The notes: generated from the sequence alone by a model not told the origin. Positions 4,640 through 29,941 are shown, counted from the stretch's first letter. The stretch: 33,297 nt of DNA from Candidatus Gottesmanbacteria bacterium (GCA_016195685.1 JACPZE010000017.1:1-33297), one strand, 5' to 3'. Program-made: numbers and translations.

Positions 4640-5797
4640 ATGAAATTTATTTTTATGGTTTTTGTATTATTATTTTTCTTGATACCACATGTAGCATTTG
4701 CAACGACCAATCCTTTGGATGTTGCGAACAATAAATACGGTATCCACGTGATCGATGAACATGATTTCCCGAATGCTTCAAATCTTGTAAACTCCTCCGG
4801 AGGCGACTGGGGATATATCACCTTAGTCATTACTGATAATGATAGGAAGAAAGACAAATGGCAGAGAAACTTTGATTTACTTCGAAGTTTACACCTTATC
4901 CCTATCATCAGACTTGCTACTCATCCTAGCGGAGATATTTGGGCTGCACCCAAAACTGAAGATGCGAGGAATTGGGCAGACTTTCTAAATAGTCTTTATT
5001 GGGTAAGCAAAAATAGGTATGTAATCTTATTCAATGAGCCGAATCATGCAACCGAATGGGGAGGATACATAAGCCCTTCTGAATACGCACAAATTCTCAC
5101 TAAATTTAGCGAAACTTTAAAAAGCGCTTCAAAAGATTTCTTTATTTTGCCAGCCGGTTTAGACGCTTCGGCACCGAATGGAAACCAAACCATGGATGAA
5201 ATTGATTTTATAAAAAGTATGATAAATACAAAAACAAACGTCTTTTCCCAAATAGATGGATGGGTTTCCCATTCATATCCAAATCCTGGCTTTCGAGGAC
5301 TTTCTTCAGATGAAGGCCGAGGTACACTTAAAACTTACCGTTGGGAAATCGAAGTACTGAAAAATTTTGGCGTAAACTACCAATTTCCTGTTTTTATCAC
5401 CGAAACCGGATGGCCACATGCGGATGGACTAGTACAAAACAAATCATATTACTCCGTAGAATTAATTGCGGAACTTCTAAAACAAGCTTCCCAACAAATA
5501 TGGGATGACCCTCAAATCGTTGCAATTACTCCTTTTATATTAAATTACCAAAGCATACCGTTTGCAAATTTTTCCTGGACAAAGTTAGGTGAAAAAGATT
5601 TTTATCCCTATTATTATACATACAAAAATATCCCTAAAATTGCCGGCAAGCCTATCTTAAATAGCGTATTCGGCAATTTTAATGGTTTCAAAATCAATAA
5701 CTTAATAACCAATTATTCCTCTGACTTAGAAGTATTTCGAAGCCACATTGACTTAAAATTCTTCCAGAGTTTATTTCTTCGGCTATTTAAACTATAA
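4640..5797 (+). CDS. Secreted glycoside hydrolase, clan GH-A-like
   Basis: 385 aa with a signal peptide (MKFIFMVFVLLFFLIPHVAF, cleavage probably after the next Ala) and a TIM-barrel-type catalytic region. FNEPN (131-135) supplies the probable acid/base Glu133 and ITETGW (253-258) the probable nucleophile Glu255, about 120 residues apart. That spacing and the NEP and ETG(W) motifs mark retaining clan GH-A enzymes (cellulase, GH39- or GH5-like). The substrate is unknown. About 60 residues at the C-terminus match nothing I recognise. No Shine-Dalgarno is visible. The stop codon overlaps the -10 of the next tRNA. Confidence 0.78.
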   Translation: MKFIFMVFVLLFFLIPHVAFATTNPLDVANNKYGIHVIDEHDFPNASNLVNSSGGDWGYITLVITDNDRKKDKWQRNFDLLRSLHLIPIIRLATHPSGDIWAAPKTEDARNWADFLNSLYWVSKNRYVILFNEPNHATEWGGYISPSEYAQILTKFSETLKSASKDFFILPAGLDASAPNGNQTMDEIDFIKSMINTKTNVFSQIDGWVSHSYPNPGFRGLSSDEGRGTLKTYRWEIEVLKNFGVNYQFPVFITETGWPHADGLVQNKSYYSVELIAELLKQASQQIWDDPQIVAITPFILNYQSIPFANFSWTKLGEKDFYPYYYTYKNIPKIAGKPILNSVFGNFNGFKINNLITNYSSDLEVFRSHIDLKFFQSLFLRLFKL

Positions 5798-18912: not shown

Positions 18913-18986
18913 GCCCCGTTCGTCTAGCGGCCTAGGACATCTGGTTTTCAGCCAGAGAATCGCCAGTTCGAATCTGGCACGGGGTA
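18913..18986 (+). tRNA. tRNA-Glu(TTC), element insertion site
   Basis: Cloverleaf with anticodon stem TCTGG/CCAGA and loop TTTTCAG, and T-arm GCCAGTTCGAATCTGGC. The acceptor is GCCCCGT/ACGGGGT, so the first pair is G-U where tRNA-Glu normally has G-C. The 3' 39 bases are shared with the end of the convergent serine recombinase gene. An element inserting at the tRNA 3' end and supplying the last bases would explain both. Confidence 0.93.
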
Positions 18987-20663
18987 CAAAGTAGGATTTT
19001 GAGACCAAGAAGTCTCCAATTGCGTTGTTGTAATGCTCCCTTTTTTAGGTTCGAACAATTCAGAAATAGTTCTTTCCTGTTTTACCATCTTCTTTATAGT
19101 GAAATACGGTTCTTGCACGTCGTAGTAAAGTGTTTTATCTTTTAAAATTAGGTTCGAACACACTGTCACAAGTATCTGTCTTTTAGAAATAGGATCACTA
19201 TTCTGGAATCTATATTTTATTCTTGTAATATAGTTGAAGTCTTTTTCTGCATTATCTAACCACTTATTAATCCTTGAGTCCATTTTTGCAAGTTTTTCCT
19301 TTATATTTGTTTTTTCTTCCAATAAGGTTTTCTTTTCTTTCAACAATTCTTCGTCTGACAGAAGTGATCGATCTGTATTTTGTGGCGAAATATAAAGTTT
19401 TATCAAGTTATCAAGTTTTGTTATACAACTTGCTTCAGCTTTCTGTAAGGATAATAATTGCGAGTTTCTGTCTGTCACTTCGCTCTCATTTAGTTTATTG
19501 AGATATTTTATTGCCCATTTATTAAACTCATCATTTATACCTATCTCAGACAGAATTTCATCAATTTGTCGATCTAGATCTTCAACTAAAATACTTTTTT
19601 GGGTGCATTTAGGATTCCTACTTTTTGCACAGTGATAATAGATGTAGTGAAGTATTTTTGGATTAACCATTTGAGATATATCTGTTTTGCACTGCGGACA
19701 TATTTGAGCACTAACCGAAGAGAACTTATTTTTACAACCGGAGCATATTACCTGCCATTTTTCCTCACAGGTTATAGCTCCTTCGCATTCTCCACATTTC
19801 ATAAGACCAGTGCCATAAAAATCTTTCTTTTTTGGACGCCTTACGCCTTTTCTTCCTAGAAGTATTTGCACTTTGTCAAAGTCATCTTTTGTAATCATAA
19901 AATCATGCTTACCTGAATACCAACGTCCACTTCCTTTTGGATATTCATATTCACCATAATAAAAAGAGTCAGTGAATATTTCATAGATTTGGCTCCGTGC
20001 CATAGGTTTACCACCAATACTTCTTCTTTCTACTGTTCTATATCCCCATTCATTATTTAACAATCTTAAAATCTGTGGAGGGGAATATAATCCAGTAAGC
20101 ATATACTCCCAACAACTCTTAATTAGTGGGAATCTAATTGGATCTTTTGTTTGATATTCTTCACCTTTCTTTTCAAGTTTTGAATTTAAATAACCTGGTT
20201 TTGCTATTCCTGGAAGCCATCCCTTCTCAGCTTTAGTAGTAAGACCACGTTTAACATCAACACTTTTATTATCATTTTCTAGCTTAGATTGAAGCATTAG
20301 AAAGCCGAGCATAAACTTGTCCATAGGATTATTTTTAAACGTCTGACTAGGAGTAATTACTTCGGATAACTTGCCTCTATCGATCAAAGATATAATTTGA
20401 GCTAAATCTTCAGTGTTTCTAGATAGTCTATTTGGATGCCATACCAGAATCCCATCAGCCTCACCAATTTCTAGTCTGTGTATCATTGAGTTGAATTTAG
20501 GTCTTCCAGGTACTTTTGCTGATTGTGATTCTGATATTACATCTTGAATCTCAAGACTTAATCTCTCTTTTATTCCAGTTAGACATTTCAATTGATCAGG
20601 AATAGATTGTACCTGCTTATATTTATCTTCCTCTGATTTTCTGGCATATAAAAAGTATTTCAT
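18948..20663 (-). CDS. Large serine recombinase / site-specific integrase
   Basis: 571 aa from ATG 20663. The N-terminal resolvase domain begins MKYFLYARKSEEDK with nucleophile Ser10 and has the active-site arginines in NRLSRNTEDL (79-82). A recombinase domain (about 137-260) follows. A zinc beta-ribbon has Cys290/Cys293 and Cys345/Cys353, with an extra CxxC-x11-CxxC ribbon inserted (307, 310, 322, 325). A coiled coil lies at about 395-470. The last twelve codons and the stop coincide exactly with the 3' part of tRNA-Glu, so the tail sequence is set by the target. It is preceded by a highly structured leader. Confidence 0.9.
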   Translation of the reverse strand: MKYFLYARKSEEDKYKQVQSIPDQLKCLTGIKERLSLEIQDVISESQSAKVPGRPKFNSMIHRLEIGEADGILVWHPNRLSRNTEDLAQIISLIDRGKLSEVITPSQTFKNNPMDKFMLGFLMLQSKLENDNKSVDVKRGLTTKAEKGWLPGIAKPGYLNSKLEKKGEEYQTKDPIRFPLIKSCWEYMLTGLYSPPQILRLLNNEWGYRTVERRSIGGKPMARSQIYEIFTDSFYYGEYEYPKGSGRWYSGKHDFMITKDDFDKVQILLGRKGVRRPKKKDFYGTGLMKCGECEGAITCEEKWQVICSGCKNKFSSVSAQICPQCKTDISQMVNPKILHYIYYHCAKSRNPKCTQKSILVEDLDRQIDEILSEIGINDEFNKWAIKYLNKLNESEVTDRNSQLLSLQKAEASCITKLDNLIKLYISPQNTDRSLLSDEELLKEKKTLLEEKTNIKEKLAKMDSRINKWLDNAEKDFNYITRIKYRFQNSDPISKRQILVTVCSNLILKDKTLYYDVQEPYFTIKKMVKQERTISELFEPKKGSITTTQLETSWSQNPTLYPVPDSNWRFSG

Positions 20664-20673
20664 ATATTCAAAC

Positions 20674-20752
20674 GGCCGTACTGGGTGCACTCATATCCGT
20701 TGGGATATGTCCACAATACGGCCATTAAAAAGCCCAACGGGTTAATGAGTGC
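20674..20752 (-). promoter_or_regulatory. Mutually exclusive stems before the recombinase (attenuator-like)
   Basis: Four perfect inverted repeats share 79 bp. Set A: GGCCGTA/TACGGCC (20674-20680 with 20717-20723) enclosing CATATCC/GGATATG (20692-20698 with 20703-20709, loop GTTG). Set B: GCACTCAT/ATGAGTGC (20687-20694 with 20745-20752) enclosing CCGTTGGG/CCCAACGG (20697-20704 with 20733-20740). The inner stem of A and both stems of B use overlapping bases, so they exclude each other; the outer stem of A with B would form a pseudoknot. The recombinase ATG is 11 bp away. Confidence 0.7.
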
Positions 20753-20781
20753 AATTTCATTGTAGTACTATAAATCTTCAT
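20725..20781 (-). CDS. 18-aa leader peptide before the recombinase
   Basis: ATG at 20781, 13 bp after the ATPase stop, with AAGGT eight bases upstream, encodes MKIYSTTMKLHSLTRWAF and ends at TAA 20725-20727. Its codons cover the 5' arms (in the transcript) of both set B stems, so a ribosome on this frame would prevent set B and allow set A. This is the geometry of translational or transcriptional attenuation. No homologue is known to me. Confidence 0.45.
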   Translation of the reverse strand: MKIYSTTMKLHSLTRWAF

Positions 20782-20794
20782 GTTCAATACCTTA

Positions 20795-22225
20795 TTAGAA
20801 CGGTACTTCATCTTTTAAGGATTCTTCTATAGCGACTTGATCCTCCATATTTGGTATTGAATCTGAGATGATTTTTCGTCTTTTTCCTTCTACTTCATAG
20901 ATTTTTGCTCTGTTTAAATACTGATTTTTCAAATCAGACGAAAGAGTGAGATTATTTTTTACTACTTTCTCTTTAAGTATATCCACTGCCTCAAGTACTT
21001 CCTGATCGGTGAGACTAGCCAAGTTAATATAGTAAAGATACCGCGACAACTTTTCCGAAGGATGTATAGAGATAGAGCCTTCTGACATCAAAACCTTGAA
21101 ATCTGGATGAAGACTATAATTCTTGATAAAACCTTCTCCCTGAAAATCAGAAGTAATAATTTCCAAACCCTCCAGCTCTTTGAGTATTCTTTGACAAGTA
21201 CGGACAGATTTATAAGTGATTCGACTTAAATCTTTTGCTTTTACATCACTATGATTTAGAAAATAATCCAATATATCAGCCCTTTCAGCAGGCATTGAAG
21301 ATCTAACCACATTTTTTAAGATCCTAATTTCATCGACTGATATAGCAGACCGTCCATTCAGAATAGAAAGACATATTCCTAGGTTTCTGAGTTGCTGAAA
21401 TGCCCTCCAGGGTTCTTCAACTTGCTTATCAGTGATTTCCACATACGAAACCTGTTTTCCATTCTCATTAGTAAAACTCCCTTTTGAAGTGAGTATAATA
21501 CCCCTTGTACGAGCCATAACTACCGCAAGCTGTTCCAATATAGATTTAGTTTCGGAATTAGTGATTACAAAGTGAATTGGAGCCATTTTAAGAAAGTTTT
21601 CAAAGTAAGATTTGACTAATTCACCACAACTACTAATGGCTTTTTTTCTATTTTCAACACTCCATGCAATATTGAAGCCATCTAATCTTCTTTTTTCATC
21701 AAGAGGAGGTAAACGATAGAGCATAAATCGAGGACCTACAATATTTAAGTATTTTTGATGCTTATTTAGAGCTACCGGAGTAATACACCCAATATGACTA
21801 AACTGACTCTGATAAGATATGTATCCCCGTGTAGGAGTGTATTTTGCAAATTCACCATCGTAAATAGATACCATTTCACCTAAAAGTTTTTTTGTTGTTT
21901 CCTCATTAAGAGAAAAGATCGTCGTATAGTCCTTACATATAAAACACTTGTTGTTAAGTTCTGATAATAGGTCATATGATTTTCCTTTATTTGCAGGCAC
22001 ATATCCTGAGGCAAAGGGATTCATTGTCATAGAATCAATAAAATAAACAAAGTCCAATTTCCTAAAGATTGAAACAAGATCAGTCTTTGCAGAAGATGGC
22101 ATTCCTACCATCATGAGCCATAATGGAGGAGAAATATCTAGTTTAACTGATAAGACTATTGCAAATACACACCTTATCAGATCTTCAGGTAAAGAGATGA
22201 ACTTGGATATTTCTTGTAATAACAA
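20795..22225 (-). CDS. P-loop ATPase, phage/plasmid replication type
   Basis: 476 aa. Walker A-like VGMPSSAKTD (40-49) has Ala where Gly is usual before Lys-Thr. CFICKDYTTIFS lies in the Walker B/sensor region, followed by IYDGEFAKYTPTRG and IGCITPVAL, then VGPRFMLYRLPPL with a probable arginine finger. This order resembles AAA-type helicase/primase-associated ATPases of phages and integrative elements. A winged helix (about 340-385, KDLSRITYKSVRTCQRILKEL) follows, then a basic helical tail. The TTG start has AAGGAG six bases upstream. In the same frame an ATG at 22297 opens ten codons that end in TAA, so the gene may have lost its original start. Confidence 0.72.
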   Translation of the reverse strand: MLLQEISKFISLPEDLIRCVFAIVLSVKLDISPPLWLMMVGMPSSAKTDLVSIFRKLDFVYFIDSMTMNPFASGYVPANKGKSYDLLSELNNKCFICKDYTTIFSLNEETTKKLLGEMVSIYDGEFAKYTPTRGYISYQSQFSHIGCITPVALNKHQKYLNIVGPRFMLYRLPPLDEKRRLDGFNIAWSVENRKKAISSCGELVKSYFENFLKMAPIHFVITNSETKSILEQLAVVMARTRGIILTSKGSFTNENGKQVSYVEITDKQVEEPWRAFQQLRNLGICLSILNGRSAISVDEIRILKNVVRSSMPAERADILDYFLNHSDVKAKDLSRITYKSVRTCQRILKELEGLEIITSDFQGEGFIKNYSLHPDFKVLMSEGSISIHPSEKLSRYLYYINLASLTDQEVLEAVDILKEKVVKNNLTLSSDLKNQYLNRAKIYEVEGKRRKIISDSIPNMEDQVAIEESLKDEVPF

Positions 22226-22390: not shown

Positions 22391-22774
22391 TTACAAAGGA
22401 AGTACGTCTGATATTTTTTGATACATAACTCCCTCGACTTCTTTGTCGTTTTTAACGATAATCTTGCAGGGTTTTCCTTTAAGATCCTGCAGATTAAAGT
22501 CTGAATCTTTATCAGGTTCCTTGCCTGTTAAAGATTTTACGATTCCGTAAAGTTTAGACACTTTACCGGATTTTTTTGACTTTGATAGCTTTTTGGAAGC
22601 GATCATTGTCCTCATCTCATCCCTTTGAGCTTCTGTCGTAATTACGAATGAGATTTTTACGTATTGTCCGAACTCTCCTTCTTCTTCGGAAAGTTCTTTT
22701 ACGTAGGCTTCGTATAAGCCTTCAGGAATTGGTTTTGGTTCGTCAAATTCCTGTACTTTAACTATTAAGGTCAT
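22391..22774 (-). CDS. DUF669-like protein (phage ssDNA-annealing neighbourhood)
   Basis: 127 aa from ATG 22774; a GTG at 22786 in frame lies inside the Shine-Dalgarno (AAAGGAGG) and is unlikely to be the start. The pattern PIPEGLYEAYVKEL, GEFGQYVKISFVITTE, LYGIVKSLTGKEP, DLKGKPCKIIVKND and YQKISDVLP resembles DUF669 and similar phage OB-fold-like proteins that accompany recombination or replication genes. A single-strand DNA-binding role is therefore possible but unproven. It is cotranscribed with the 59-aa gene whose stop is five bases upstream. Confidence 0.6.
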   Translation of the reverse strand: MTLIVKVQEFDEPKPIPEGLYEAYVKELSEEEGEFGQYVKISFVITTEAQRDEMRTMIASKKLSKSKKSGKVSKLYGIVKSLTGKEPDKDSDFNLQDLKGKPCKIIVKNDKEVEGVMYQKISDVLPL

Positions 22775-22778
22775 ATAT

Positions 22779-22958
22779 TCATTCACCTCCTTTCAAAAAA
22801 ACTTTAATAATCGGTGTATTTAGTTGATCATTAAGTAATATTTTGTATAAGCTTAAAAGCTTCATGCTCATGATTTTCGCCTCCTCAAAAGAAAGTTCCT
22901 TTTTATAAGTTTTTCTATATATTTCTTGAAATTCGTGTATGGCATCATTTGGCAACAT
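22779..22958 (-). CDS. 59-aa small protein of the element
   Basis: A 59-codon frame beginning MLPNDAIHEFQEIYRKTYKK and continuing ELSFEEAKIMSMKLLSLYKI. The sequence is a clean pair of amphipathic helices. The pattern 'EFQEIY-KEFG-ELSFEEA-LL-LY-LL' is one I associate with short proteins in CPR mobile elements; the function is unknown. It starts four bases after the DUF5659 stop, with GGAG ten bases upstream, and ends five bases before the next ATG. This tight packing and its protein-like composition support a real gene. Confidence 0.7.
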   Translation of the reverse strand: MLPNDAIHEFQEIYRKTYKKELSFEEAKIMSMKLLSLYKILLNDQLNTPIIKVFLKGGE

Positions 22959-24969: not shown

Positions 24970-26442
24970 ATGTTTGAACAATCATTTAAAAATATTGATG
25001 ATATTCTCCATCGTGATGCTGGTTGTGCGACTGAACTTGATTATATAGAGCAAACCTCTTGGATTCTTTTTCTAAAATACCTTGACAACTTAGAAGAAAT
25101 AAAGAAAAAAGAAGCTGTACTTGCGGGAAGAGAATATAAATACATTATAAACCCAGAATATCGATGGAACGTTTGGGCTGAACCAAAGAAACCAGATGGT
25201 AGTTTGGATATAAACAAAGCTCTAACTGGAGACGATCTTATTATTTTTATCAATCGGATAGATGATAAAAATAATGGCTTATTCCAGTATTTGAAAAAAT
25301 TCAAACTAAATGCGTCAGGTCCAGATACTATTGAATATAAAATTGGCGAAATATTCAGTGAATTAAAGAATAAGATTGAAAGTGGATATCGACTTCGAGA
25401 AATCCTGAATATTGTAGACACAATGCATTTTCGTACTGATTCCGAGAAGCATGAACTATCTCATCTTTATGAAGCAAAAATTAAAAATATGGGTAATGCT
25501 GGGAGAAATGGTGGAGAATTTTACACACCAAGACCACTCATCAGAACCATCGTGAAGGTTGTTGACCCTAAAATTGGAAATACGATATACGATGGAGCGT
25601 GTGGATCTGCTGGATTCCTTGTTGAAGCATTTGATTACCTTAACCGGAGCAAAGAACTCACAACCACAGAATCGGAGCTTCTTCAAAAGCACACTTTCTA
25701 TGGCAAGGAAATTAAATCTCTTGCATATATTATTGGTGTAATGAATATGATACTTCACGGTATCGAAGCTCCAAATATCCTGCATACGAATACTCTTGCC
25801 CAAAATATAAACGACATCCAAGATAAGGATCGGGTTGATATAGTTCTTGCAAATCCACCCTTCGGAGCAGGAATCGGACGGGAGATACAACAAAACTTTC
25901 CTATTAAAACAGGAGAAACTGCATATCTTTTTCTCCAACACTTTATAAAAATGCTTAAAGCTGGAGGTAAAGCAGGAATAGTAATTAAAAATACATTCCT
26001 TTCGAACGCTGATAATGCCTCCGTCAGTTTACGCAAATTACTGTTAGAAAGCTGTAATCTCCAAACAGTGCTAGATTTACCTGGTGGTACTTTTTTGGGT
26101 GTTGGAGTTAAGACAGTAGTTTTATTTTTTGAAAAAGGATCGTCTACTAAGAAAATATGGTATTACCATTTAAATCTTGATCGAATGCTTGGTAAAAACA
26201 AACCATTAAATGAAAAAGATTTGGCTAAATTTGTAGAATTACATCAAACTAAAGCTGAAAGCGAAAATTCATGGACAATAGATATTACTAATATTGATTC
26301 TAAAATATATGATCTTCAGGTAAAAAATCCTCATAAAAAAGATGAATCACCAATTCGTAATCCGAAGGAAATAATTGATGAGATAGAAAAACTTGATGTA
26401 GAAAGCGCAAAGATACTCGAAACGATTAATTCTTTAATATGA
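24970..26442 (+). CDS. hsdM: Type I restriction-modification methyltransferase subunit HsdM
   Basis: 490 aa. It methylates the N6 of adenine with S-adenosylmethionine as the M subunit of an M2S methylase and R2M2S nuclease. N-terminal HsdM_N helices (1-150) are followed by GGEFYTPRPLI, SAM-binding motif I DGACGSAGF (208-216) and the catalytic NPPF (295-298), then the target-binding region and a helical tail. Length and motifs are normal. No Shine-Dalgarno precedes the ATG, and an operator lies just upstream. The stop overlaps the hsdS start by four bases (ATGA). Confidence 0.94.
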   Translation: MFEQSFKNIDDILHRDAGCATELDYIEQTSWILFLKYLDNLEEIKKKEAVLAGREYKYIINPEYRWNVWAEPKKPDGSLDINKALTGDDLIIFINRIDDKNNGLFQYLKKFKLNASGPDTIEYKIGEIFSELKNKIESGYRLREILNIVDTMHFRTDSEKHELSHLYEAKIKNMGNAGRNGGEFYTPRPLIRTIVKVVDPKIGNTIYDGACGSAGFLVEAFDYLNRSKELTTTESELLQKHTFYGKEIKSLAYIIGVMNMILHGIEAPNILHTNTLAQNINDIQDKDRVDIVLANPPFGAGIGREIQQNFPIKTGETAYLFLQHFIKMLKAGGKAGIVIKNTFLSNADNASVSLRKLLLESCNLQTVLDLPGGTFLGVGVKTVVLFFEKGSSTKKIWYYHLNLDRMLGKNKPLNEKDLAKFVELHQTKAESENSWTIDITNIDSKIYDLQVKNPHKKDESPIRNPKEIIDEIEKLDVESAKILETINSLI

Positions 26443-27623
26443 ATAATACCTGGGCAACATATAAATTGGGTGAAATATGTAATTTTCAAGGTGGCTCTCA
26501 ACCACCTAAATCGGAATTTTCAATCGTAAAAAAAGAAGGTTATATTCGCCTGATTCAAATTAGAGACTACAAATCAGATAATTTTATTATATTTATCCCA
26601 GAGAAAAGAGCAAAAAGGTTCTGTAATGAAGAGGAAATAATGATTGGAAGATATGGTCCTCCGGTTTTTCAAATATTAAAAGGCATTAAAGGTGCTTATA
26701 ATGTTGCTCTAATGAAAGCAATTCCAAATGAAAAAATTATTTCAAAAGACTATCTTTATATATTTTTAAAGTATTCGGAAATCCAAGACTATATAATTAG
26801 ATTGTCACAAAGAGCTGCAGGACAAAGTGGTGTTAATAAAAGAGCTCTTGAATCATATCCAATTCAAATTCCATCCCTTATTGAACAACAACGAATAGTG
26901 AAAATATTCATTAATACTTTTGAATCAATTTCTCAAGTTAAAAATAATACAGAAAAGAATTTACATAATATTCATGAGCTCAATAAATCTTATTTAAATA
27001 AAATATTTTCAAATCCAGCTAAAGACGAGACATCTTGTGAATTAAATGATTATGTTAAATTCATTGATTATCGAGGACGAACTCCCAAAAAAACAACAAG
27101 CGGATTGCGTCTTATAACCGCAAAAAATATTAAAATGGGTTTTTTACAAAGAGATCCTGAAGAATTCATTAATCCTGATGATTATGAAAAATGGATGACA
27201 AGGGGTATACCTAAAAAAGGTGATGTCTTGTTCACAACAGAAGCTCCATTAGCAAATGTTGCGCAATTAGATACTGATGAGAAGGTTGCATTTGCGCAAC
27301 GTACTATTATTTTCCAGCCAGAAGCTAATAAATTAGATCAATCTTATTTAAAATATTTACTATTAGCACCTCCTATTCAAAAGATTATTCAAGATAAAGG
27401 AACAGGAGCAACAGTAAAAGGAATTAAGGCTAGTGTATTGAAAAAGATTCATATTCAATTCCCTAATCTAATGACTCAAAAATCTCTAGTAACCAAACTT
27501 GATGAACTTTCTATAGAAATTAAAAAACTTGAGCAAAAATATAATAAAAAATTAAAAGATATTGAAGAGTTAAAAAAATCTATACTACAAAAACTGTTTG
27601 CAGGTGAATTACGTTATATATGA
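26439..27623 (+). CDS. hsdS: Type I restriction-modification specificity subunit HsdS
   Basis: 394 aa with the usual two-half layout. TRD1 (about 1-145) is followed by a conserved coiled helix (QQRIVKIFINTFESISQVKN to about 190). TRD2 (about 200-345, with TPKKTTSGLRLITAKNIKMG and GTGATVKGIKASVLKKI) is followed by the second helix SLVTKLDELSIEIKKLEQKY. Each TRD reads half of a bipartite target and the helices set the spacer. The two TRDs differ, so an asymmetric target is likely; the sequence cannot be predicted. It overlaps hsdM and hsdR by four bases on each side. Confidence 0.92.
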   Translation: MNNTWATYKLGEICNFQGGSQPPKSEFSIVKKEGYIRLIQIRDYKSDNFIIFIPEKRAKRFCNEEEIMIGRYGPPVFQILKGIKGAYNVALMKAIPNEKIISKDYLYIFLKYSEIQDYIIRLSQRAAGQSGVNKRALESYPIQIPSLIEQQRIVKIFINTFESISQVKNNTEKNLHNIHELNKSYLNKIFSNPAKDETSCELNDYVKFIDYRGRTPKKTTSGLRLITAKNIKMGFLQRDPEEFINPDDYEKWMTRGIPKKGDVLFTTEAPLANVAQLDTDEKVAFAQRTIIFQPEANKLDQSYLKYLLLAPPIQKIIQDKGTGATVKGIKASVLKKIHIQFPNLMTQKSLVTKLDELSIEIKKLEQKYNKKLKDIEELKKSILQKLFAGELRYI

Positions 27624-29941
27624 ATGAAGCAGAAACACGAGCTGAATATATTGATCCAAAACTAAAAGCCAGTGGATGGGGAGAAGTAGATGGATCTAAA
27701 ATCCTTCGTGAACATAGAATCACCGAAGGAAGGATACTAGTTGGTGGTACACGAGCCAAACCCGAGATTGCTGATTATATTTTGGTATATAAAAACCAAA
27801 AACTAGCAGTAATTGAAGCCAAACAAGATGAACTCCCCGCAACTGAAGGTGTAGCTCAGGCAAAAAACTATGCTCAGAAAATGCAACTTGAGTACACCTA
27901 CTCAACAAATGGAAAAGAAATCTATCAAATCTCACTGAATTCAGGAAAAGAAGAGTATATAGATGCGTTTCCTACTCCTGAAGGGTTATGGAAGAAAGTG
28001 TATTCAGATCAAAATGAATGGAAAGAGAAGTTTGCTTCAATTCCTCTAGAAGGTGAATTGGGAAAACGATATTATCAAGAATCAGCTATTAATAATGCAT
28101 TAAACGCAATTGCTGAAGACAAGAAACGAGTATTACTTACTCTTGCTACTGGAACAGGAAAGACAGCTATAGCTTTTCAAATAACTTGGAAACTCTATCA
28201 AACTCGCTGGACTCTTCAACATGATGCTCAAAGACGCCCAAGAATACTTTTCCTTGCGGATCGAAACATACTTGCTGATCAAGCATTTAATACCTTTGGC
28301 GCATTCCCTGAAGATGCTTTAGTTCGTATTAACCCTCTAGATATTCGTAAAAAAGGTTCAGTTCCTATGAATGGTAGTATCTTTTTTACTATTTTTCAAA
28401 CATTTATGAGTGGCCCACAAGGAACACCGTACTTTGGTGATTATCCTTCTGACTTTTTTGACAGCATCATTATTGATGAATGTCATCGAGGAGGAGCAAA
28501 CGATGAGGGGAATTGGAGAGCTATTCTTGAGTATTTTTCTCCCGCTGTTCAATTAGGATTAACAGCTACACCAAAGCGAAAGGATAATGTTGATACATAT
28601 AGATATTTTGGGGAGCCAGTTTATACATATTCACTTAAAGAAGGAGTAAATGATGGTTTTCTAACTCCATTTAAAGTAAAACGCATTCAAACGACTCTTG
28701 ATGAATATGTTTACACCTCCGATGATCAGGTTATTGAGGGCGAAGTTGAGGCTGGGAAAGTCTATAAAGAAGCCGACTTTAATAAAATTATTGAAATCAA
28801 AGAACGTGAATCGAAAAGAGTCCAGTTACTTCTAGATAATATAAATCAAAGCGAAAAAACAATAATCTTTTGTGCAACACAAGATCACGCTTTAGCAGTC
28901 AGAGATCTTATTAATCAATATAAGAAAAGCAAAGATCCTTTTTATTGCCAAAGAGTAACAGCAAACGATGGAGCACGAGGTGAGCAGTATCTACGCGACT
29001 TTCAGGATAATGAAAAGACTATTCCTACAATACTAACCACATCACAAAAACTTTCCACAGGTGTAGATGCGCGTAATATACGAAATATTGTTCTTATGCG
29101 TCCAGTCAATACAATGATTGAGTTTAAACAAATTATTGGACGTGGTACTCGGTTGTTTGAGGGTAAGGAATATTTCACGATTATAGATTTTGTTGATGCG
29201 TATAAAATGTTTTTAGATCCTGAATGGGATGGAGAACCGATTGAGCCACTTCCTCCTAAACCACCCGGTCCTCCACCTCCACCACCGAAACCGTGTCCAG
29301 TATGTGGGCAAGTACCGTGTATATGTGAAAAGCCACCTCCACCGCCCAAAAAAATTATCAAAGTCAAATTGCGCGATGGAAAAGAAAGAGAGATTCAGCA
29401 TATGATCTCAACATCCTACTGGGGTGCAAATGGAAAACCTATTTCTTCTGAAGAATTTATTCAAAGCTTATATGGAGTATTTCCAGATTTGTTTAAAAGC
29501 GAAGAAGAGCTTCAAGTTATATGGTCGAATCCAACTACAAGAAAGCGATTTCTGGAAAGACTTTTTGATCTTGGAATAGATTTGGAACAAATAGAAAACA
29601 TCTCCAAAATCGTAAACGCTGATCAATGTGATTTCTTTGATGTTCTATTATTTCTTGCATATAACAATCCTCTTATAACTCGTAAACAAAGAATTGAAGG
29701 GAACAAAAATCATCTATTTGAGAATCTAACAGACAAAGAAAAGGATTTTTTAAATTTCGTATTAAGTAAATATGAAGAGTCAGGTTATGAAGAACTTGAT
29801 GAGGAAAAACTCCCAATTCTATTAAATTTGAAATATCATGCTATTGCTGATGCTGAAAACGCATTGGGTAGTGTCGATAAGATTCGTGAAGCGTTCTTCT
29901 CTTTCCAAAAGAACCTGTATGAGAAAATTGACAAAGGGTAA
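27620..29941 (+). CDS. hsdR: Type I restriction endonuclease subunit HsdR (EcoEI type)
   Basis: 773 aa. The N-terminal PD-(D/E)xK nuclease shows Asp52 and Glu66-Ala-Lys68 (IADYILV...VIEAK). The SF2 translocase follows with Walker A ATGTGKT (176-182), DECH (286-289), GLTATP and the arginine motif QIIGRGTRL. Residues about 541-577 are an unusual proline-rich linker with a CPVCGQVPCIC knuckle, then an EcoEI_R_C-like tail. It cuts unmodified DNA after ATP-driven translocation. About normal size for EcoEI-type HsdR. Translation of the proline run probably depends on EF-P. Confidence 0.92.
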   Translation: MNEAETRAEYIDPKLKASGWGEVDGSKILREHRITEGRILVGGTRAKPEIADYILVYKNQKLAVIEAKQDELPATEGVAQAKNYAQKMQLEYTYSTNGKEIYQISLNSGKEEYIDAFPTPEGLWKKVYSDQNEWKEKFASIPLEGELGKRYYQESAINNALNAIAEDKKRVLLTLATGTGKTAIAFQITWKLYQTRWTLQHDAQRRPRILFLADRNILADQAFNTFGAFPEDALVRINPLDIRKKGSVPMNGSIFFTIFQTFMSGPQGTPYFGDYPSDFFDSIIIDECHRGGANDEGNWRAILEYFSPAVQLGLTATPKRKDNVDTYRYFGEPVYTYSLKEGVNDGFLTPFKVKRIQTTLDEYVYTSDDQVIEGEVEAGKVYKEADFNKIIEIKERESKRVQLLLDNINQSEKTIIFCATQDHALAVRDLINQYKKSKDPFYCQRVTANDGARGEQYLRDFQDNEKTIPTILTTSQKLSTGVDARNIRNIVLMRPVNTMIEFKQIIGRGTRLFEGKEYFTIIDFVDAYKMFLDPEWDGEPIEPLPPKPPGPPPPPPKPCPVCGQVPCICEKPPPPPKKIIKVKLRDGKEREIQHMISTSYWGANGKPISSEEFIQSLYGVFPDLFKSEEELQVIWSNPTTRKRFLERLFDLGIDLEQIENISKIVNADQCDFFDVLLFLAYNNPLITRKQRIEGNKNHLFENLTDKEKDFLNFVLSKYEESGYEELDEEKLPILLNLKYHAIADAENALGSVDKIREAFFSFQKNLYEKIDKG

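Follow-up and report, generated by a model that had tools for sequence, protein, structure and literature searches.

Four inverted repeats that lie in front of a large serine recombinase (LSR) gene of Candidatus Gottesmanbacteria bacterium correspond to the four helices of a structured RNA that is widespread. The gene is carried by a stretch of 33,297 nt (JACPZE010000017.1, hereafter called the window). The repeats occupy the 131-nt spacer between the stop codon of an open reading frame (ORF) at 20795-20797 and the recombinase ATG at 20663-20661, namely positions 20664-20794 of the minus strand. Judging from sequence comparisons, we read this spacer as the promoter-linked 5'-leader RNA of a tRNA-targeting LSR, which would gate translation of the recombinase, and we place the probability of this reading at roughly 45%. 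Its probable role is that of a switch restricting the occasions on which the mobile DNA moves.

An earlier note on this DNA (the original prediction) had described the four repeats as part of an RNA-level attenuator. All of them are present in the spacer, namely TGCACTCAT/ATGAGTGCA, CCGTTGGG/CCCAACGG, CATATCC/GGATATG, and CGGCCGTA/TACGGCC, the last with 13-nt arms that are 85% complementary. The predicted folding energy of the spacer is -31.1 kcal/mol (z = -2.98), and 2 of 200 shuffled sequences fold equally well. Far better evidence than this energy is the conservation of all four helices by covariation in relatives. The overall topology of the element is that of a helix P1 (9 bp) enclosing a second helix P2 (8-10 bp), the apical segment of which forms P3 with bases immediately 3' of P1. 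The full length of P3 is ~14 bp (AATGGCCGTATTG(T)GG / CCCAGTACGGCCGTT), an extent missed by the original prediction. Because P1, P2, and P3 are built from entirely distinct bases, the three helices can be formed together as a compact pseudoknot. Nearly all of the conserved positions are paired, and few unpaired ones are conserved besides a run of U residues.

The same plan, in different sequence, with P2 inside P1 and an interleaved P3, is found upstream of about one-third of the recombinase relatives inspected. In an alignment of nine sequences (A1), 94.8% of the cells are paired and double changes occur in 18 of 32 pairs. The covariation score is 0.491 as compared to 0.191 after shuffling, a control that ignores relatedness, and 0.11 or less with the partners slid, a control that accounts for it in part. 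A covariance model was built from nine relatives, its structure consisting of P1 and P2 only. Among 374 genomes from the class, 101 gave a match to this model, with up to six copies apiece, and a phylum-wide sample of 380 genomes, which overlaps the first, gave 26. A total of 138 distinct copies was collected. In a larger alignment (A3, 81 distinct rows), 95.7% of the cells pair, 30 of the 32 pairs display double changes (634 such cells versus 173), and the score for P1, P2, and P3 is 0.693, with values of 0.180 for the shuffled and 0.107 or less for the slid controls. Given that P3 was absent from the structure of the search model, its covariation provides an independent test. The original prediction had named a lack of covariation among related spacers as one outcome that would speak against it; covariation is clearly present, and both the repeats and an RNA-level element in the recombinase leader are supported by it. 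The components of the element are as follows.

20661-20755, minus strand: the whole conserved RNA element, 94 model positions, extending through the recombinase ATG (model R1, 84.8 bits, E 8e-17; the window sequence is one of the nine training sequences of R1)
20745-20753, minus strand: 5' strand of P1, TGCACTCAT, partner 20686-20694, double changes in 9 of 9 pairs (A3), predicted transcript start on its first bases
20733-20740, minus strand: 5' strand of P2, CCGTTGGG, partner 20697-20704, double changes in all 9 pairs (A3)
20727-20731, minus strand: U-run between the 5' strands of P2 and P3, invariant in A1 and near-invariant in the 138 copies
20711-20726, minus strand: 5' strand of P3 (the pseudoknot), AATGGCCGTATTGTGG, partner 20671-20685, double changes in 11 of the 12 main P3 pairs
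20703-20709, minus strand: 5' strand of hairpin C, CATATCC, a repeat of the P1 5' strand's end, in competition with P2 at its end and with the three inner base pairs of P1
20697-20704, minus strand: 3' strand of P2, CCCAACGG, from the inverted repeat and covariation
20692-20698, minus strand: 3' strand of hairpin C, GGATATG, overlapping the 3' strands of P1 and P2
20686-20694, minus strand: 3' strand of P1, ATGAGTGCA, from the inverted repeat and covariation
20671-20685, minus strand: 3' strand of P3, CCCAGTACGGCCGTT, from covariation, its last paired base lying 7 nt before the ATG

The nature of the base changes points to an element that acts as an RNA of the minus (LSR) strand, since G-U pairs far exceed A-C combinations in P3 (131:9) and P2 (36:9), and one position of P3 is nearly always a U-G wobble (72 of 80). 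In P1 the corresponding counts are 11:11, and its pairs are nearly all Watson-Crick.

The fourth helix, hairpin C, is an alternative to parts of P1 and P2. The segment following the 5' strand of P3 (GGACAG, GGACAA, GGACAT, or GGACGG) is a repeat of the last part of the P1 5' strand and can pair with the same 3' partner. Across 129 copies, hairpin C retains a mean of 6.04 of its 7 pairs versus 4.58 with the partners swapped, and none of 500 swapped sets was as good. Its three positions outside of P1 are paired in 85-87% of the copies versus 48-60% after swapping. Moreover, a triple covariation (CAG/CAA/CAT/CGA) links the end of the P1 5' strand, the 5' strand of C, and the 3' strand that they share, and in the window the matching positions of all three depart together from the common form. 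The retention of C pairing and these three-position changes indicate that strand exchange between C and P1/P2 is conserved. The notion that hairpin C is private to the window was rejected, for it is conserved across the 138-copy set. Nested folds of the P1/P2 type and of the P3/C type are nearly equal in energy (mean difference of -0.4 kcal/mol, standard deviation of 4.1 kcal/mol, 137 copies), as calculated with pseudoknots left out of account. The original prediction had envisaged two mutually exclusive sets of hairpins, P1/P2 on the one hand and P3 with C on the other. That part holding C exclusive of P1 and P2 stands and is conserved, but the exclusion does not extend to P3, which shares no bases with P1 or P2.

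A predicted sigma-70-like promoter, overlooked by the original prediction, is located inside the spacer at 20787-20759. In 42 of 56 loci, exactly 3 nt lie between the -10 hexamer of the best such promoter and the first position of the model, and no comparable promoter peak was observed in the intervals further upstream. The transcript is accordingly predicted to start on the first bases of P1. The features of this region are the following.

20782-20787, minus strand: -35 hexamer TTGAAC of the putative recombinase promoter (promoter scan, TTGAAC-17-TACAAT), at the same position in relatives
20759-20764, minus strand: -10 hexamer TACAAT (promoter scan), ending 3 nt before the RNA model
20725-20781, minus strand: 18-codon frame of the original prediction, its ATG between the -35 and -10 hexamers, judged not to be a leader peptide

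The reading that the RNA gates translation of the LSR is based on the placement of P3. Where the element directly adjoins the gene (63 loci), P3 ends a median of 4 nt before the LSR ATG, and the distance in the window is 7 nt. A Shine-Dalgarno-like motif is present in just 13 of these 63 loci and in 1 of the 24 genes of the window. Given the latter count, translation initiation here probably depends on unpaired sequence, and formation of P3 would take this away. P3 would thereby keep the ribosome-landing region closed and recombinase synthesis low. The exchange from C to P1/P2 might be the folding step that sets the leader open or shut, and it could in turn be set by co-transcriptional timing or by a protein, RNA, or host signal. 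The element combines two hallmarks of a structured cis-regulatory leader RNA, namely a covarying structure in diverged copies and a consistent kind of downstream gene, the LSR.

The recombinase itself contains both of the domains that define LSRs, an N-terminal Resolvase and a Recombinase domain, and its 3' end runs into a tRNA gene.

18948-20663, minus strand: LSR, 571 aa (Resolvase PF00239, 2e-20; Recombinase PF07508, 3.5e-5; PHROG integrase, 4e-51)
18913-18987, plus strand: tRNA-Glu(TTC) overlapping the recombinase 3' end, the presumed attachment site (ARAGORN), with other tRNAs likewise in relatives

The same arrangement is observed for LSR relatives that overlap tRNA-Asn, Met, Phe, or Gln at their 3' ends. 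The final codons of the recombinase (18948-18986) are antisense to the tRNA gene, and thus the C-terminal residues of the LSR may depend on the integration site. This antisense overlap recurs in nine other loci (L005, L006, L008, L011, L012, L015, L017, L019, and L035). Protein searches yielded relatives of the recombinase both within the class and outside it, at 30-60% identity. Among viral contigs, no relatives of the recombinase and no matches to two motif patterns were found.

Eighty-nine of the 138 copies lie upstream of an LSR, with 63 directly abutting its start and 26 about 200-400 nt upstream. The remaining 49 have no LSR in reach, and 15 of these are on contigs ending nearby; copies lacking the association are mostly at contig ends or precede the same downstream element minus the LSR. 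In 25 loci of the distant class, the distance to the LSR is 197-398 nt, and in most of them a 10-30 bp inverted repeat could loop out of the transcript the stretch that intervenes. This class contains, between element and LSR, 330-nt stretches with inverted ends and a tRNA-end-like core. In L052, L062, L063, L066, and L095, for example, the stretch is ~330 nt in length, non-coding, and bounded by GTTCTTTAAAATTTTTGCG / CGCAAAAATTAAAGAAC, and its core resembles a tRNA 3' end. It is possibly an attP, the use of which would part the promoter from the recombinase. Such separation as the sole cause of LSR-less copies was rejected on the basis of a closed genome (G021) that has no LSR near its copy. 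Recombinase-less copies are also found in L067, L070, L080, and L091 and in L048, L071, and L078, some of them facing a tRNA 3' end via the inverted half of the stretch. It is possible that these copies are non-autonomous elements or remnants.

Several observations weigh against the reading of the element as a gate of LSR translation. First, 34 copies on long contigs without a recombinase within ~1.5 kb keep the promoter and the fold in the same manner as the LSR-linked copies, so the constraint may not arise solely from translation of the LSR, which is the chief objection to a role confined to that step. The single copy in G021 is near neither of the two LSRs found in that genome. The inverted-repeat helix of the distant class scores just modestly above swapped partners (16.4 versus 14.1, with a maximum of 15.8). 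In addition, several related LSRs are not accompanied by the element, and thus the RNA is not required for the enzyme. Related elements that keep the recombinase but lack the repeats and the leader frame had been listed in the original prediction as evidence to the contrary, and in part this is what was observed. Finally, exchange among C, P1, and P2 need not alter access to the ATG, because P3 can form in both of the alternative folds.

The main rival reading, a serious but less probable one, gives the promoter-linked RNA a different role, either at the transcript's 5' end or in trans, instead of in translation of the next gene. Examples include protection of the 5' end, antitermination of the put type in which RNA polymerase is modified just after initiation, and a separate non-coding RNA belonging to the mobile element. 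Such a role would suit a transcript that is predicted to begin at P1 itself, and a structure and promoter that are equally intact when the LSR is missing or its ATG is 200-400 nt away. Furthermore, a tail (CATTTRAGTT) following P3 is conserved even when there is no ATG. Against these points, 63 of the 138 copies abut an LSR start codon at short spacing, few unpaired bases except for the U-run are conserved, and the recombinase-less copies may be recent remnants. That the element serves more specifically as an RNA partner of the recombinase system in trans, bound, for example, by the recombinase or a host factor, seems rather unlikely. If true, it would explain the keeping of the promoter and fold in the absence of a recombinase, and LSR elements would carry an undescribed non-coding RNA component.

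A self-cleaving ribozyme or a ligand-binding riboswitch with a nested pseudoknot is improbable. The interleaved helices are indeed compact and of nearly constant size, and the strand order is reminiscent of the hepatitis delta virus (HDV) ribozyme if hairpin C forms. The element has no Rfam ribozyme or riboswitch match, however, even at permissive thresholds, and its conserved positions do not include an unpaired core beyond the U-run. Additionally, the window locus has no terminator.

Still less probable is a recombinase binding or crossover site built of palindromes at the DNA level, which the original prediction had offered as its alternative. Inverted repeats do adjoin the integrase gene, and in the distant class a tRNA-3'-end-like sequence separates the element from the LSR. 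But the 3' end of the recombinase lies in tRNA-Glu, as it does in other tRNAs in the relatives, which would place the integration junction at the gene's opposite end and the att site ~1.7 kb from the spacer. The helix sequences vary freely while pairing is kept, G-U outnumbers A-C in P3 and P2, and the position of the promoter is fixed.

The ribosome-coupled attenuation by a leader peptide favored in the original prediction can be set aside with little hesitation, for although the 18-codon frame exists, spans the 5' arms, and is accompanied by conserved and mutually exclusive hairpins (C versus inner P1 and P2), its ATG (20781-20779) falls within a promoter whose -10 hexamer is at a constant distance from P1, 57 of the 137 copies have a frame spanning both 5' arms as compared to 59 after shuffling of the 60 nt upstream, and there are no terminator-like sites in 20600-20900.

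Some additional loci deserve mention. Longer-P2 forms of the same topology, with a 13-bp P1, were recognized by eye upstream of LSRs in L023 and L040, having been missed by the model. Two convergent RNA elements are found in each of L152 (1209-1414, ~14 bp apart) and L139 (918-1419). There was no match to the covariance model in the genomes of L035 and L039. The LSR leader of the latter (Mucilaginibacter, ~4830-4980) has similar long inverted repeats and a P3-like stem followed by a T-run, and it is possible that this leader is a true terminator-type attenuator.

With respect to the neighboring genes in the window, the 476-aa ORF upstream of the leader (20795-22225) has no Pfam match and a weak CARF-type PADLOC match (4e-6, residues 309-380). 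The region 22391-22786 encodes a small protein that matches a phage single-strand DNA binding family (phrog_378, 3e-8). Type I restriction-modification genes (M, S, and R) are located at 24970-29941, beyond the recombinase as seen from the tRNA gene. No right-hand junction was found for the mobile element of the window.

A search of Rfam release 15 with the window and 17 other loci gave no match to the element at gathering or sub-threshold E-values, and no description of such an RNA was found in the open-licence literature. We therefore call it a new family that belongs to an established kind, the structured leader RNAs. What is known of how large serine integrases are controlled concerns chiefly protein directionality factors and transcriptional regulators, and LSRs are not known to employ RNA. 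The mobile elements of the ultra-small bacteria of the candidate phyla radiation (CPR/Patescibacteria) have been little studied. A pseudoknot leader that recurs in about one-quarter of the sampled genomes of the class would mean that integration in these organisms is controlled at the level of RNA as well. LSRs are employed in genome engineering, and the element provides a concrete candidate for an RNA switch beside this class of enzymes.

Among known systems, the strand order of the element, P1-P3-C-C'-P1'-P3', resembles the nested double pseudoknot of HDV-like ribozymes, but there is no P4, conserved catalytic core, or Rfam match. In nearly all of the 138 copies, the few nucleotides between the 3' strands of P1 and P3 leave the HDV-type P4 and catalytic cytosine junction unaccommodated. 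The bridge RNAs of IS110 and the omega RNAs of TnpB/IscB are structured RNAs found beside a mobile element's recombinase or nuclease gene. The element described here likewise adjoins a mobile-element enzyme gene and occurs in gene-less copies as well, but it is nearly all self-paired and shows no variable target-matching loops. The put RNAs of phage HK022 function in antitermination and consist of two simple stem-loops. They share with the element a position immediately after a mobile-element promoter, whereas here a pseudoknot and a strand-exchange hairpin adjoin the start codon. Finally, in the repY-repZ replication leaders of IncI/IncB plasmids, a pseudoknot activates translation and a translated leader peptide is required. 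The present element differs in that it lacks a conserved leader peptide, its RNA is predicted to begin at the promoter, and it precedes a recombinase gene. Like those leaders, it precedes a gene of a mobile element, and competing helices together with a pseudoknot near the start codon are predicted to set translation.
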